Under the pieces are notes generated by a model, which saw nothing but the letters and a program-made list of their open reading frames with translations, was not told where the DNA came from and ran no database searches. DNA of 36,883 nucleotides, taken from a virus. Positions 3,729 through 14,283 of the stretch are shown here, in pieces. Within the stretch, counting starts at the first letter, position 1. Every line of letters begins with the position of its first letter. The translations under genes and the position numbers were made by a program. The DNA lies in IMG/VR virus record IMGVR_UViG_3300037502_001148, positions 1 through 36,883 of that record; one strand, written 5' to 3'.

Positions 3729-4217
3729 CTAAAAAGGCAAATCCCCCGGATCAATATCGTATGTGTTACCGTTACTAGTGAACGGATCTCGCGTGTTGTT
3801 AAAATCGTTGTAAACGTCTTGCTTCGTCTTCGTGTTATCGAATCTGCTCTGCTCATTGTTCGATAGATTTTTTCTTGGCGCTTGTTGCGCGTTGTCAGAT
3901 TTTTTCTCCAGAAGCGCGAAGTTATCAGCGACTACTTCGGTCACATATACGCGGTTTCCGTCTTTGCCTTCATAATTCCGTGTTTGGATTCTGCCAGTGA
4001 TGCCAACCAATGAGCCTTTGTGCGTGAAGTTTGCGAAGTTCTCAGCGTTCTTTCTCCAAATTACACAGTTGATGAAGTCGGCTTCACGTTCGCCGCTCGC
4101 GCTCTTGAATGGACGATTGACCGCCAGTGAAAAGCTTGCTGTTGCCGTGCCGTCTGATGTGTATCTCAAATCTGCGTCTTTCGTTAAGCGTCCTACTAAA
4201 GTAACGTTATTAATCAT
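3729..4217 (-). CDS. ssb: Single-stranded DNA-binding protein
   Basis: The 162-aa product starts [20 protein letters not shown] and continues with the OB-fold pattern of bacterial SSB (residues about 1-108: FSLAVNR ... [18 protein letters not shown] ... [27 protein letters not shown], cited here in parts). A low-complexity Asn/Asp-rich linker and the acidic DLPF tip follow, which in SSBs recruits partner proteins. It coats single-stranded DNA during replication and recombination, consistent with the helicase and annealing genes next to it. Confidence 0.95.
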
Positions 4218-9029: not shown

Positions 9030-9039
9030 GTGGTATAAT
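9030..9039 (+). promoter_or_regulatory. Rightward extended -10 promoter
   Basis: GTGGTATAAT contains a perfect TG-n-TATAAT extended -10. No convincing -35 is present, which is acceptable for extended -10 promoters. It points against the leftward early operon and would start RNA near 9046. The same 10-mer occurs at 13213-13204 and 35072-35063 on the minus strand. Confidence 0.6.
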
Positions 9040-11581: not shown

Positions 11582-12955
11582 ATGAACAAACGAGCAGGAC
11601 TTTATGTAAGAGTTTCAACCAGCGAGCAAGCGCGGGAAGGATATTCCATCGGAGCGCAGACGGAGAAGCTGAAAGCTTTTGCAATGGTCAAAGATTATAC
11701 AGTAGAGAAAATATATACGGACCCCGGCTTTTCCGGCTCAAAATTGGACCGTCCGGGCATGAGTGAACTGATTGACGATGTAATAAACAAGCGCATCGAT
11801 GTGGTGATGGTCCACAAATTGGATCGGCTGTCACGGAGCCAAAAGGATACATTGCATCTGATCCAGGATATCTTCAAGCCGAACAACGTGGATTTTATTT
11901 CCATCGAGCAAAGTTTTGACACATCCACATCCTTCGGCATGGCGATGGTCGGCATCTTGTCCGTGTTCGCGGAATTAGAACGCAGTACGATTGCGGAGCG
12001 GATGATGATGGGTCGTGTGGAACGTGCAAAAAGAGGCTTGTTCCGAGGCGGAAATAACGTCCCTCTCGGATATTCGTACGCGGACGGGGAATTAGCCCCG
12101 GACGGCGACGCGCATCTTGTAGCGGATATTTTCGCGCGATATACAGACGGCGAGAGCGCCTACTCCATTTATAAGGACTTGCACGCAAACTATCCTGGCA
12201 AAATTTACGGAGCCAACATGATTCCGCGCATCCTCAGCAATGCCACCTACACCGGAAGCGTGGTCTTTAAAGGCGAGGTATACGACGGCGAACACGAAGC
12301 GATCATCAGCCGGGAATTGTACGGTGTGGCCCAGCAGATGCTCGGCAATACGTCTGACAAGTACAAAGTGGCCAAAAACAAGCGCGCCGCCCTGCTCGCC
12401 CGGAAACTGTACTGCGGAAACTGCGGGGCCAACATTACGATGTACCGCCACCACGGCAAGGATGGGGCTGCTGATTATGGGTACTACCGCTGCAACAGTC
12501 GGAGAAAAAACAGGCCGAACGGCATCAAGAACCCGGATTGCAAACAGAAGCACCACCGGACGGATAAGCTGAATGCGGCGATCCTGAGCGCCCTGGATGC
12601 TTTGGACTACAACGCGGCTGTCGCATCGGTGCGGAAGAAGGATGTCGGCTATGCGGAATCGAAGCGGTTGACGGAAATCGCCAAACAGGAAAAACGCCTG
12701 CTGGACTTGTACCAGTATGAGCGCATCAACATCTCCGAATTGGATCAGCGCATGATTGAGTTGCAGGATGAGAAAAAACGGCTGCACAAGCCGAAGGCAT
12801 CCGCTAAGGAAGCACGCATCATCGAACAACTGGACACGTTGCAGACGGCGGACATCCACGCGTTGCCGTTCATGGAACAGTGCGAAGTCGTGGACACGTT
12901 GATTGACCGCATCATCATTAACGGGGATGATGTGGATATCCGTTTCAAATTCTAG
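11582..12955 (+). CDS. int: Large serine recombinase integrase
   Basis: The 457-aa protein opens with the resolvase catalytic domain: YVRVSTSEQAREGYS with R10 and nucleophile S12, YTDPGFSGSKLDRPG, VVMVHKLDRLSRS and SVFAELERSTIAER. A recombinase domain (about 150-270) follows, then a zinc ribbon (C278, C281, C304, C320), a coiled-coil segment (about 355-400) and a short tail. Length and architecture match TP901-1/A118-type integrases. It inserts the phage at attP x attB without host factors. Excision usually needs a separate directionality factor, which I could not identify. GGGAG precedes the ATG. Confidence 0.95.
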   Translation: MNKRAGLYVRVSTSEQAREGYSIGAQTEKLKAFAMVKDYTVEKIYTDPGFSGSKLDRPGMSELIDDVINKRIDVVMVHKLDRLSRSQKDTLHLIQDIFKPNNVDFISIEQSFDTSTSFGMAMVGILSVFAELERSTIAERMMMGRVERAKRGLFRGGNNVPLGYSYADGELAPDGDAHLVADIFARYTDGESAYSIYKDLHANYPGKIYGANMIPRILSNATYTGSVVFKGEVYDGEHEAIISRELYGVAQQMLGNTSDKYKVAKNKRAALLARKLYCGNCGANITMYRHHGKDGAADYGYYRCNSRRKNRPNGIKNPDCKQKHHRTDKLNAAILSALDALDYNAAVASVRKKDVGYAESKRLTEIAKQEKRLLDLYQYERINISELDQRMIELQDEKKRLHKPKASAKEARIIEQLDTLQTADIHALPFMEQCEVVDTLIDRIIINGDDVDIRFKF

Positions 12956-12978
12956 TCGGCCATGCGGTCGGCTTTTTT
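12954..12978 (+). terminator. Intrinsic terminator of int
   Basis: AGTCGGCC (12954-12961) pairs with GGTCGGCT (12966-12973) across the loop ATGC, giving eight pairs including two G-U, followed by a six-T tract. It overlaps the int stop codon and separates int from the attP candidate. Confidence 0.75.
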
Positions 12979-12980
12979 GT

Positions 12981-13020
12981 GTACAGTTTAACCACTATTA
13001 GAATTGTAGTTAGGTTGTAC
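12981..13020. other. Candidate attP for the serine integrase
   Basis: Two 19-bp half-sites, 12981-12999 and 13002-13020, match in inverted orientation at 14 of 19 positions, around a central AG dinucleotide (13000-13001). The outer GTACA/TGTAC and middle TAAC/GTTA blocks are exact. Serine integrases use attP sites of this size and symmetry with a 2-bp crossover. The site lies between the int terminator and the lysis end of the genome, exactly where the prophage should open. Confidence 0.6.
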
Positions 13021-13034
13021 CCAAAAGTATGCAC

Positions 13035-13058
13035 AAAAAAACCCACTGACCAGGTGGG
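13035..13058 (-). terminator. Leftward terminator before attP
   Basis: On the minus strand CCCAC (13058-13054) pairs with GTGGG (13046-13042) and is followed by seven U (13041-13035). It ends the putative structured RNA and also backs up the endolysin terminator at 13255-13288. Confidence 0.7.
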
Positions 13059-13212
13059 CTTTGTAAGTGCTATTTAATATCCTTTGCCCTGCGCTCCAAA
13101 TAGCGTGGTTGCGTGTGAGCGTCCGCTCCCGGATAGTGATGGCGTGCCGGGTGTAATCAAAAGTTGAGCAGTAAATCGAAACTTTGCCCGGCCTTACGAG
13201 ATAATTATACCA
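13035..13212 (-). ncRNA. Putative structured non-coding RNA between endolysin and attP
   Basis: A minus-strand extended -10 (GTGGTATAAT, ending 13204) predicts a start near 13197. The end is set by a terminator with stem 13042-13046/13054-13058 and seven U. The roughly 155-nt product has no ATG. It can form GCCGGG/CCCGGC between 13187-13192 and 13146-13151, or alternatively CCCGG/CCGGG between 13147-13151 and 13128-13132; these are mutually exclusive. A third stem is GCTATTT/AAATAGC (13069-13075 with 13098-13104). The position beside attP is where lysogenic-conversion or accessory elements tend to sit. The function is unknown. Confidence 0.5.
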
Positions 13213-13254: not shown

Positions 13255-13288
13255 AAAAAAAGCCTCCCACCCGATTAAGAGTGAGAGG
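13255..13288 (-). terminator. Leftward terminator behind the endolysin gene
   Basis: Eight pairs between 13263-13270 and 13281-13288, with one G-U that exists only in leftward RNA, enclose a 10-nt loop. G and then seven U follow. It lies 9 nt beyond the endolysin stop and closes the late operon. Confidence 0.8.
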
Positions 13289-13296
13289 TTTTTGAT

Positions 13297-14283
13297 TTAG
13301 CTAAATGTGCCCAGTGCTTCGCCGTTGTATCTGACCTTAAGGTATCTATTAGCACCACCGTATGAAACGTAATGTACCCACACGTATGTCCCATCGTTTA
13401 AGTACGAGTCATAACGCACACTCTCGCCGGGATAGTATGTTGCGATTACAGGTGAGCTATCTTTAGGCTCTGATCTAACACCGACTGCGATGTTAGGATA
13501 AAACGTACCCGACTCTGCTACCCAGCCAGTGATCACTTGCACAGGTGTAGGGGCAACAACAGTCTGAGGAATCACATCCTGCTCTAATACCCACGAGTTA
13601 ATGCCGTCAAGCAGATAAGCGCGCTTGCTTGCGGATTGGTTTACCGCTTTGACCTGTTTAATAGCGTAGGTGCTGCCTTTTACCCATGATGCGATGGGCT
13701 GCCCGGTCTGGTAGTGTGTAGCTGCCGATCGGACTGTGACCTTGGTTCCGACTGCGAGGCCGCCGCTAGGCGCTGACGCTGCAGGAGTAGATACCGCGCC
13801 CGAAGGTTGTGCCAATTTTGCACGGAAGGCGTCCATCTGCGCTTTGGTGTACCCAGGACAGCTGCTATTGTTGTAAATCTCCCGGTGTCCCTTGACCTTG
13901 CTTGCCGGGATATTTAAATCTCCCATGATCTTGCGTGTCAGCCATTCACGCGCATCAATCTGCGCTTGCGAGTAATCATTGCCATTACCCGCCTCAACGC
14001 TGATATGCACGACGTATCCGTTGTTGTCCTTAACACCCCAGGTAATGCGCTCATAGTCATAGTTTTGGTAAATGTTTCCGTCCGCGTCAATATAAAAATG
14101 ATAGCCGCCACGATCCCATCCAAGCGTATCACGCCAGTATGCTTCGTGATTTGTGATAAAAGCTCTGTTTTTGCGTAATACTGCGGTGTAGTGCCATCCG
14201 ATCGTTGTGATTGCAGACAAGGCTCTGTCTTTGCGTTGACCGCCTAGCGCGACCGCGCGTCTGTCGATAATTTTATAAGCCAT
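13297..14283 (-). CDS. Endolysin: N-acetylmuramoyl-L-alanine amidase with SH3b-type binding domains
   Basis: The 328-aa protein begins with an Amidase_2 domain (about 1-165). The zinc ligands H31 (WHYTAV), H133 (KGHREIY) and C142 (SSCPG) are all present. A first binding module follows (about 178-245: VGTKVTVRSAATHYQTGQPI ... SWVLEQDVI), and then an SH3_5-like module (about 252-328: SGTFYPNIAVGVRSEPKDSS ... YVWVHYV). It cleaves the MurNAc-Ala bond of peptidoglycan at the end of infection. There is no signal peptide, so it depends on the holins encoded just upstream. GAGGG precedes the ATG, partly inside the end of the holin gene. Confidence 0.93.
   Translation of the reverse strand: MAYKIIDRRAVALGGQRKDRALSAITTIGWHYTAVLRKNRAFITNHEAYWRDTLGWDRGGYHFYIDADGNIYQNYDYERITWGVKDNNGYVVHISVEAGNGNDYSQAQIDAREWLTRKIMGDLNIPASKVKGHREIYNNSSCPGYTKAQMDAFRAKLAQPSGAVSTPAASAPSGGLAVGTKVTVRSAATHYQTGQPIASWVKGSTYAIKQVKAVNQSASKRAYLLDGINSWVLEQDVIPQTVVAPTPVQVITGWVAESGTFYPNIAVGVRSEPKDSSPVIATYYPGESVRYDSYLNDGTYVWVHYVSYGGANRYLKVRYNGEALGTFS

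Follow-up and report, generated by a model that had tools for sequence, protein, structure and literature searches.

A structured RNA gene beside the lysin gene in phages of Trichococcus and its kin, a candidate trans-acting RNA of the lysogen

We analysed a 36,883-base stretch of viral DNA (IMG/VR record IMGVR_UViG_3300037502_001148), referred to here as the window and numbered from its first letter as position 1. On its minus strand, in the interval from the lysin gene to a putative phage attachment site (attP), an extended -10 promoter is followed by an RNA of ~165 nucleotides without an ATG and by an intrinsic terminator (~13198-13033). At lower coordinates than this spot lie the early genes, a Cro/CI-type pair and the gene of a large serine integrase; the lysin gene lies on the other side, together with two holin-like genes and with the late genes. 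The features of the locus are the following:

11582..12955, plus strand: large serine integrase (Resolvase, Recombinase and Zn_ribbon_recom domains)
12980..13019, no strand assigned: putative attP, read by eye as an imperfect inverted repeat next to the gene of the serine integrase
13033..13198, minus strand: structured RNA gene, ~165 nt (full-length match to a covariance model with the window copy in its training set, and five homologues)
13035..13058, minus strand: intrinsic terminator of the RNA, read from the sequence (a helix with four two-sided pair changes across six copies)
13204..13212, minus strand: extended -10 promoter TGGTATAAT, read from the sequence (TGNTATAAT lies upstream of all six copies)
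13263..13288, minus strand: the lysin gene's own separate terminator, upstream of the RNA (consensus scanner)
13297..14283, minus strand: lysin (Pfam domains Amidase_2 and SH3_5)

A repeat search at the putative attP gave other arms (12967-12989 / 13024-13046), and we infer the placement of attP in the window from the sequence.

The original prediction had given this RNA its own extended -10 promoter, its own terminator and no start codon, and all three claims held. TGGTATAAT is present at 13212-13204 on the minus strand, the terminator has the stem CCCAC/GTGGG (13058-13054 / 13046-13042) followed by seven T, and the transcript contains no ATG. A consensus scanner listed neither the promoter of the RNA, which has no -35 element, nor its terminator, so both assignments rest on reading of the sequence and on recurrence in all six copies. 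Seven TGNTATAAT sites were observed in the window, compared with 1.47 expected; a single box is therefore weak evidence, whereas boxes at six of six homologous positions are strong evidence. From the same excess, extended -10 boxes seem to be favoured in this phage. The seven sites are at 9031, 9470, 10474, 13204, 15859, 35063 and 35691. TGNTATAAT ends 6 bases from the GUAAG sequence in the window and 19-21 bases from it in the other five copies, which share a AGATATATC leader that is absent from the window copy, as read from the promoter alignment. By sequence, each of the six copies is intergenic and has its own promoter and terminator, as expected of a prophage-encoded trans-acting sRNA.

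A search with the lysin led to related proviruses, one of which (L005) carries the RNA; this RNA, flanking sequence included, is identical to a locus of Trichococcus collinsii DSM 14526. In total, five diverged homologues were found: two in T. collinsii DSM 14526 (L005 and a second copy, L043), one in a kin genome (L044, in genome G008) and two in metagenome phage contigs (L029 and L056). In the window copy and in all five of these, TGNTATAAT is present, GUAAG and CUUAC form the closing helix, and there are two hairpin domains as well as a terminator. L056, which was outside the training set, matched the five-copy covariance model R1 over its full length (133.7 bits, E 4.4e-30). The retention of promoter, helices and terminator in the homologues bears out the proposed RNA gene beside attP, both structured and independent, and we consider it very likely that the small RNA gene is real.

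Searches with the covariance model found the RNA in two of 296 relatives of T. collinsii, in two of 395 genomes at order level and in one of 398 genomes at class level (here at E 0.001); the sets overlap and the positive genomes are identical across them, and searches over more than 40 genomes use stricter filters, under which weak copies may be missed. Five of the 398 class genomes passed E 0.1, and four of these (22-25 bits) were dropped since they matched mainly the terminator or scattered weak columns. A blastn search with the RNA against 50,697 phage and 72,556 plasmid records gave no copy, only short chance matches, and the integrase used as bait among viral contigs gave no match. Loose motif-scan matches (L024-L028, L050-L055 and L057) were dropped as chance matches in unrelated sequence, as were nine of ten matches in a scan of genome contigs, the tenth being T. 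collinsii. Among the covariance models of Rfam 15, no family matched the RNA (copies other than L056), whether the gathering score was applied or the E-values were relaxed; the weak matches overlapping the RNA of L005 or of the window (SraG, Trp_leader and rimP, E 2.4-5.4) were far below gathering. With so few copies in the genome, phage and plasmid searches and no fit in Rfam, the family appears narrow and centred on phages of Trichococcus and its kin. No published description of the RNA was found in the open-access literature. The RNA makes up a new structured RNA family that is narrow and belongs to a known kind. Two observations, the sequence of the lysin and partial matches to spacers, lead us to infer that the window phage infects the Trichococcus group.

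The predicted fold is a junction closed by the GUAAG/CUUAC helix (P1), with arms at the following positions of the window:

13193..13197, minus strand: P1 5' arm GUAAG, pairs with CUUAC in six of six copies, invariant
13187..13192, minus strand: P2 5' arm GCCGGG (separate folding and helix energies)
13173..13181, minus strand: conserved segment UUUCGAUUY in the P2 domain (read from alignments)
13146..13151, minus strand: P2 3' arm CCCGGC, containing a segment for which two stems were said to compete (separate folding and helix energies)
13131..13135, minus strand: P3 5' arm UAUCC, pairs with GGAUA at 13082-13078 (96.7% of cells paired in the six copies)
13128..13132, minus strand: CCGGG, partner in an alternative helix, pairing not conserved
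13117..13121, minus strand: P3c 5' arm CGCUC, predicted when the window copy, L029 and L056 were each folded separately
13092..13096, minus strand: P3c 3' arm GAGCG, predicted separately in the same three copies
13078..13082, minus strand: P3 3' arm GGAUA, pairs with UAUCC
13063..13067, minus strand: P1 3' arm CUUAC, pairs with GUAAG in six of six copies, invariant

In an alignment that was fitted to the proposed structure, and on which the pair counts rest, 95.0% of 179 cells in the six copies were standard pairs, compared with 33-41% when the 3' partners were slid. The paired cells included seven G-U and no A-C, a balance that favours an RNA read from the minus strand. Of the 32 pairs, 8 had two-sided changes, against a mean of 2.9 in shuffles; the terminator accounts for four of the 8, and P1 and helix 4 are invariant. 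Two of the four double changes outside the terminator (columns 9/83 and 11/81) were discounted because L043 is shifted by one base, and a further one (column pair 13/73) because it is unpaired in four of the six copies. Covariance over homologues had been named as a check: the homologues keep the helices of this fold, and covariation outside the terminator is modest. When the 3' domain was folded copy by copy, UAUCC/GGAUA formed in five of six copies and was one pair shorter in L043; five of the six 3' domains had an inner helix of analogous placement, and L044 picked other inner pairs. The same predicted fold in independently folded domains and the balance of G-U over A-C are better arguments for structure than the double changes. 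The fold energy of the RNA strand was unexceptional compared with shuffled sequences (z -0.20) and that of the opposite strand was better (z -2.12); with the fold energy at the shuffle mean, the case for an RNA rests on homology and not on energy. A T-arm-like reading of UUUCGAUUC was dropped since, by eye, its flanks do not pair.

The original prediction had also proposed mutually exclusive helices that share 13147-13151. In the window, the CCCGG sequence at 13151-13147 pairs with 13191-13187 (-12.7 kcal/mol with its neighbours) or, alternatively, with 13132-13128 (-9.8 kcal/mol), so the competition is real in this copy. It is not conserved, being weak in three of the six copies: the alternative helix falls to -7.0 kcal/mol in two of the other copies and to about -3.6 kcal/mol in three, while P2 persists in all six (-6.5 to -12.7 kcal/mol), indicating that the alternative helix is not a conserved switch.

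In all six copies a lysin gene on the same strand immediately precedes the RNA gene, and these lysins differ in architecture (Amidase_2 and SH3 in the window; the others were read from translations). A convergent integrase gene comes next, of the serine type in the window and of the tyrosine type in L005, L029 and L056, the latter assigned by Pfam for L056 and recognised from translations for L005 and L029. The arrangement in the kin genome G008 is RNA, att core and then a GyrB/ParE-type host gene ~180 bases beyond the RNA. The stretch between RNA and host gene is identical to that of L056 at 152 of 169 positions up to the shared att core, after which the two diverge; in L056 the RNA, att core and integrase gene are contiguous. 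Since the att core is common to both and a host gene follows it in G008, no prophage element there lies further out than the RNA. The attachment site is thus seen directly for L056 and G008, and the attP of the window is putative. The RNA had been expected to lie at the end of the integrated prophage, as it does in G008, but this is not universal: on T. collinsii contig C12 (G001 contig 12, ~764000-766000, L064), lysin, RNA and integrase genes are contiguous inside an 863-kb contig, an arrangement that does not fit a simple split at attP between the RNA and the integrase gene. GGGGCA repeats occur at that locus after the RNA and before the end of the integrase gene, and short GGCA-type repeats occur between RNA and integrase gene in L005 and L056. 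L005 also has a tRNA-Lys (TTT) between lysin and RNA (3896-3968), preceded by a tRNA-Leu-like stretch (by eye).

Passages of PMC3757294 state that in S. aureus and S. pyogenes lysogenic-conversion genes, virulence genes among them, are found distal to the lysin of the phage, and that a Lactococcus prophage has an abortive-infection gene in the interval from lysin to attR. The RNA occupies the same slot; the lysogenic-conversion genes named in those passages are protein genes, whereas here the slot holds an RNA gene. Since the RNA occupies the lysogenic-conversion slot of low-GC Gram-positive phages, it should be made in the lysogen while the late genes are off, and it is probably expressed there. 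Based on this position, on its own promoter and on conserved unpaired segments, we consider a trans-acting RNA of the lysogen to be its most likely role, and we assign a probability of roughly 55% to a free-standing phage non-coding RNA, expressed in the lysogen and acting in trans, in the slot between lysin and attachment site. The RNA would be transcribed from its own extended -10 promoter to its own terminator and would fold into the GUAAG/CUUAC-closed junction with two hairpin domains. It would act most likely via the conserved unpaired segments, UUYGAUUY in the first domain and an ACAC-containing loop in the second; UUYGAUUY could also be conserved for other reasons. The target would belong to the host or to a competing phage, and the benefit to the lysogen would be of a kind such as resistance to other phages.

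Small RNA genes carried by prophages and acting in trans are likewise represented by svsR, SprY and DicF. Passages of PMC12803456 and PMC12197685 report phage-resistance roles of prophage sRNAs in Enterobacteria; according to the former, svsR represses lamB and limits phage infection, and according to the latter, SprY acts in trans on RNAIII. svsR is one simple hairpin and sits at the cI 3' end, whereas the RNA described here is a junction RNA located between lysin and att site, and it differs from svsR, SprY and DicF in that no Rfam relation was found and in its occurrence in phages of the Trichococcus group. A more speculative extension, on which we place only a small minority of our confidence, is that the RNA is the founding member of a prophage RNA family in Trichococcus-type bacteria, carried as cargo for defence or counter-defence and shielding the lysogen from other phages; if this is true, the protection encoded between lysin and attR would be carried out by RNA and not by protein. 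Gram-positive temperate phages load host-changing genes into this slot, which is normally searched for proteins, and a conserved structured RNA found there, in phages whose lysins and integrases differ, offers a lead towards lysogenic conversion by RNA outside Enterobacteria.

Because the RNA is encoded beside the lysin and holin genes, it might instead regulate the phage's own genes (lysis, late or lytic-switch genes) by base pairing. However, the best duplex found in a scan of 44 start regions of the phage (-30.1 kcal/mol) was not better than those of six shuffled RNAs (-28.5 to -33.7 kcal/mol), so that the suggested action on lysis genes gained no support, and the RNA is conserved although the adjoining lysins differ in kind. 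We regard this explanation as unlikely. The conserved closed junction, with internal sequence blocks beyond a simple seed, would also suit a protein-binding RNA, for example an antitoxin-like RNA, a decoy or a guide for an RNA-protein system of host or phage. No single partner gene adjoins all six copies, however, and the Rfam searches found no family for it, which makes such a role improbable as well. Its place beside attP, the terminator at its end and the GGCA-type repeats of L005 and L056 could point to a cis element, either structured DNA within attP or a transcription barrier that separates the lysin gene from the gene beyond it (integrase or host). This seems rather improbable: a barrier needs no promoter, yet one is present in six of six copies, the conserved internal helices and loops lie away from the att core, and in the window the lysin gene has a separate terminator upstream of the RNA.

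CRISPR evidence comes from a third genome (G018), whose array (L070, contig 26) has 25 readable spacers. One spacer matches the RNA gene of T. collinsii (L005) at 34 of 34 positions with a TTC flank; we take the array to be type I-C and TTC to be its PAM. The corresponding site has two mismatches in L043 and four in L044, and this spacer does not match the window copy (18 mismatches). The spacer match shows that hosts of the Trichococcus group meet the RNA gene on phage DNA, and it is silent on the function of the RNA. Other spacers of the array match the lysin region of L063 (33 of 33, CTC flank) and, with 6 mismatches in 36, the window at ~23785-23750. Another candidate role is that of an RNA anti-CRISPR imitating a CRISPR repeat. 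Racrs, as described in passages of PMC10651486, are likewise small phage RNAs that are intergenic and have a promoter of their own, and one genome of this host group carries a spacer against the gene. Those passages present Racrs as solitary repeat units, whereas the best local scores of the six RNAs against the one G018 repeat were at most 3 above the shuffle median and below the 95% level, so that the present RNA has no repeat-like segment above shuffles with respect to this host repeat; we find an anti-CRISPR role very improbable. A small peptide is hardly credible, since the 28-codon TTG-started frame of the window, the sole frame on the minus strand of the RNA, is not kept open as a common frame in the six copies, indels between copies are not multiples of three and neither the window copy nor L044 has an ATG, even though a frame reading PDTNNES.A.DL.NAKG is open over the 3' domain in L005, L043 and L044.

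Protein genes were also seen in the slot beyond the lysin and may lie inside the prophages; in kin phages some of them encode defence-like proteins, which counts in favour of the main reading. Three genes in L003 (5515-7615) and two in L006 (5393-7814) had no PADLOC or Pfam match and are possible lysogenic-conversion or defence cargo. A related provirus without the RNA encodes a 704-aa helicase beyond its lysin (L002:6136-8250; PADLOC 'Helicase' model, E 3.2e-233), and a PARIS-like pair lies beyond the second T. collinsii copy of the RNA (L062:2388-4627; AriA, E 2.5e-27; AriB, E 3.9e-16).
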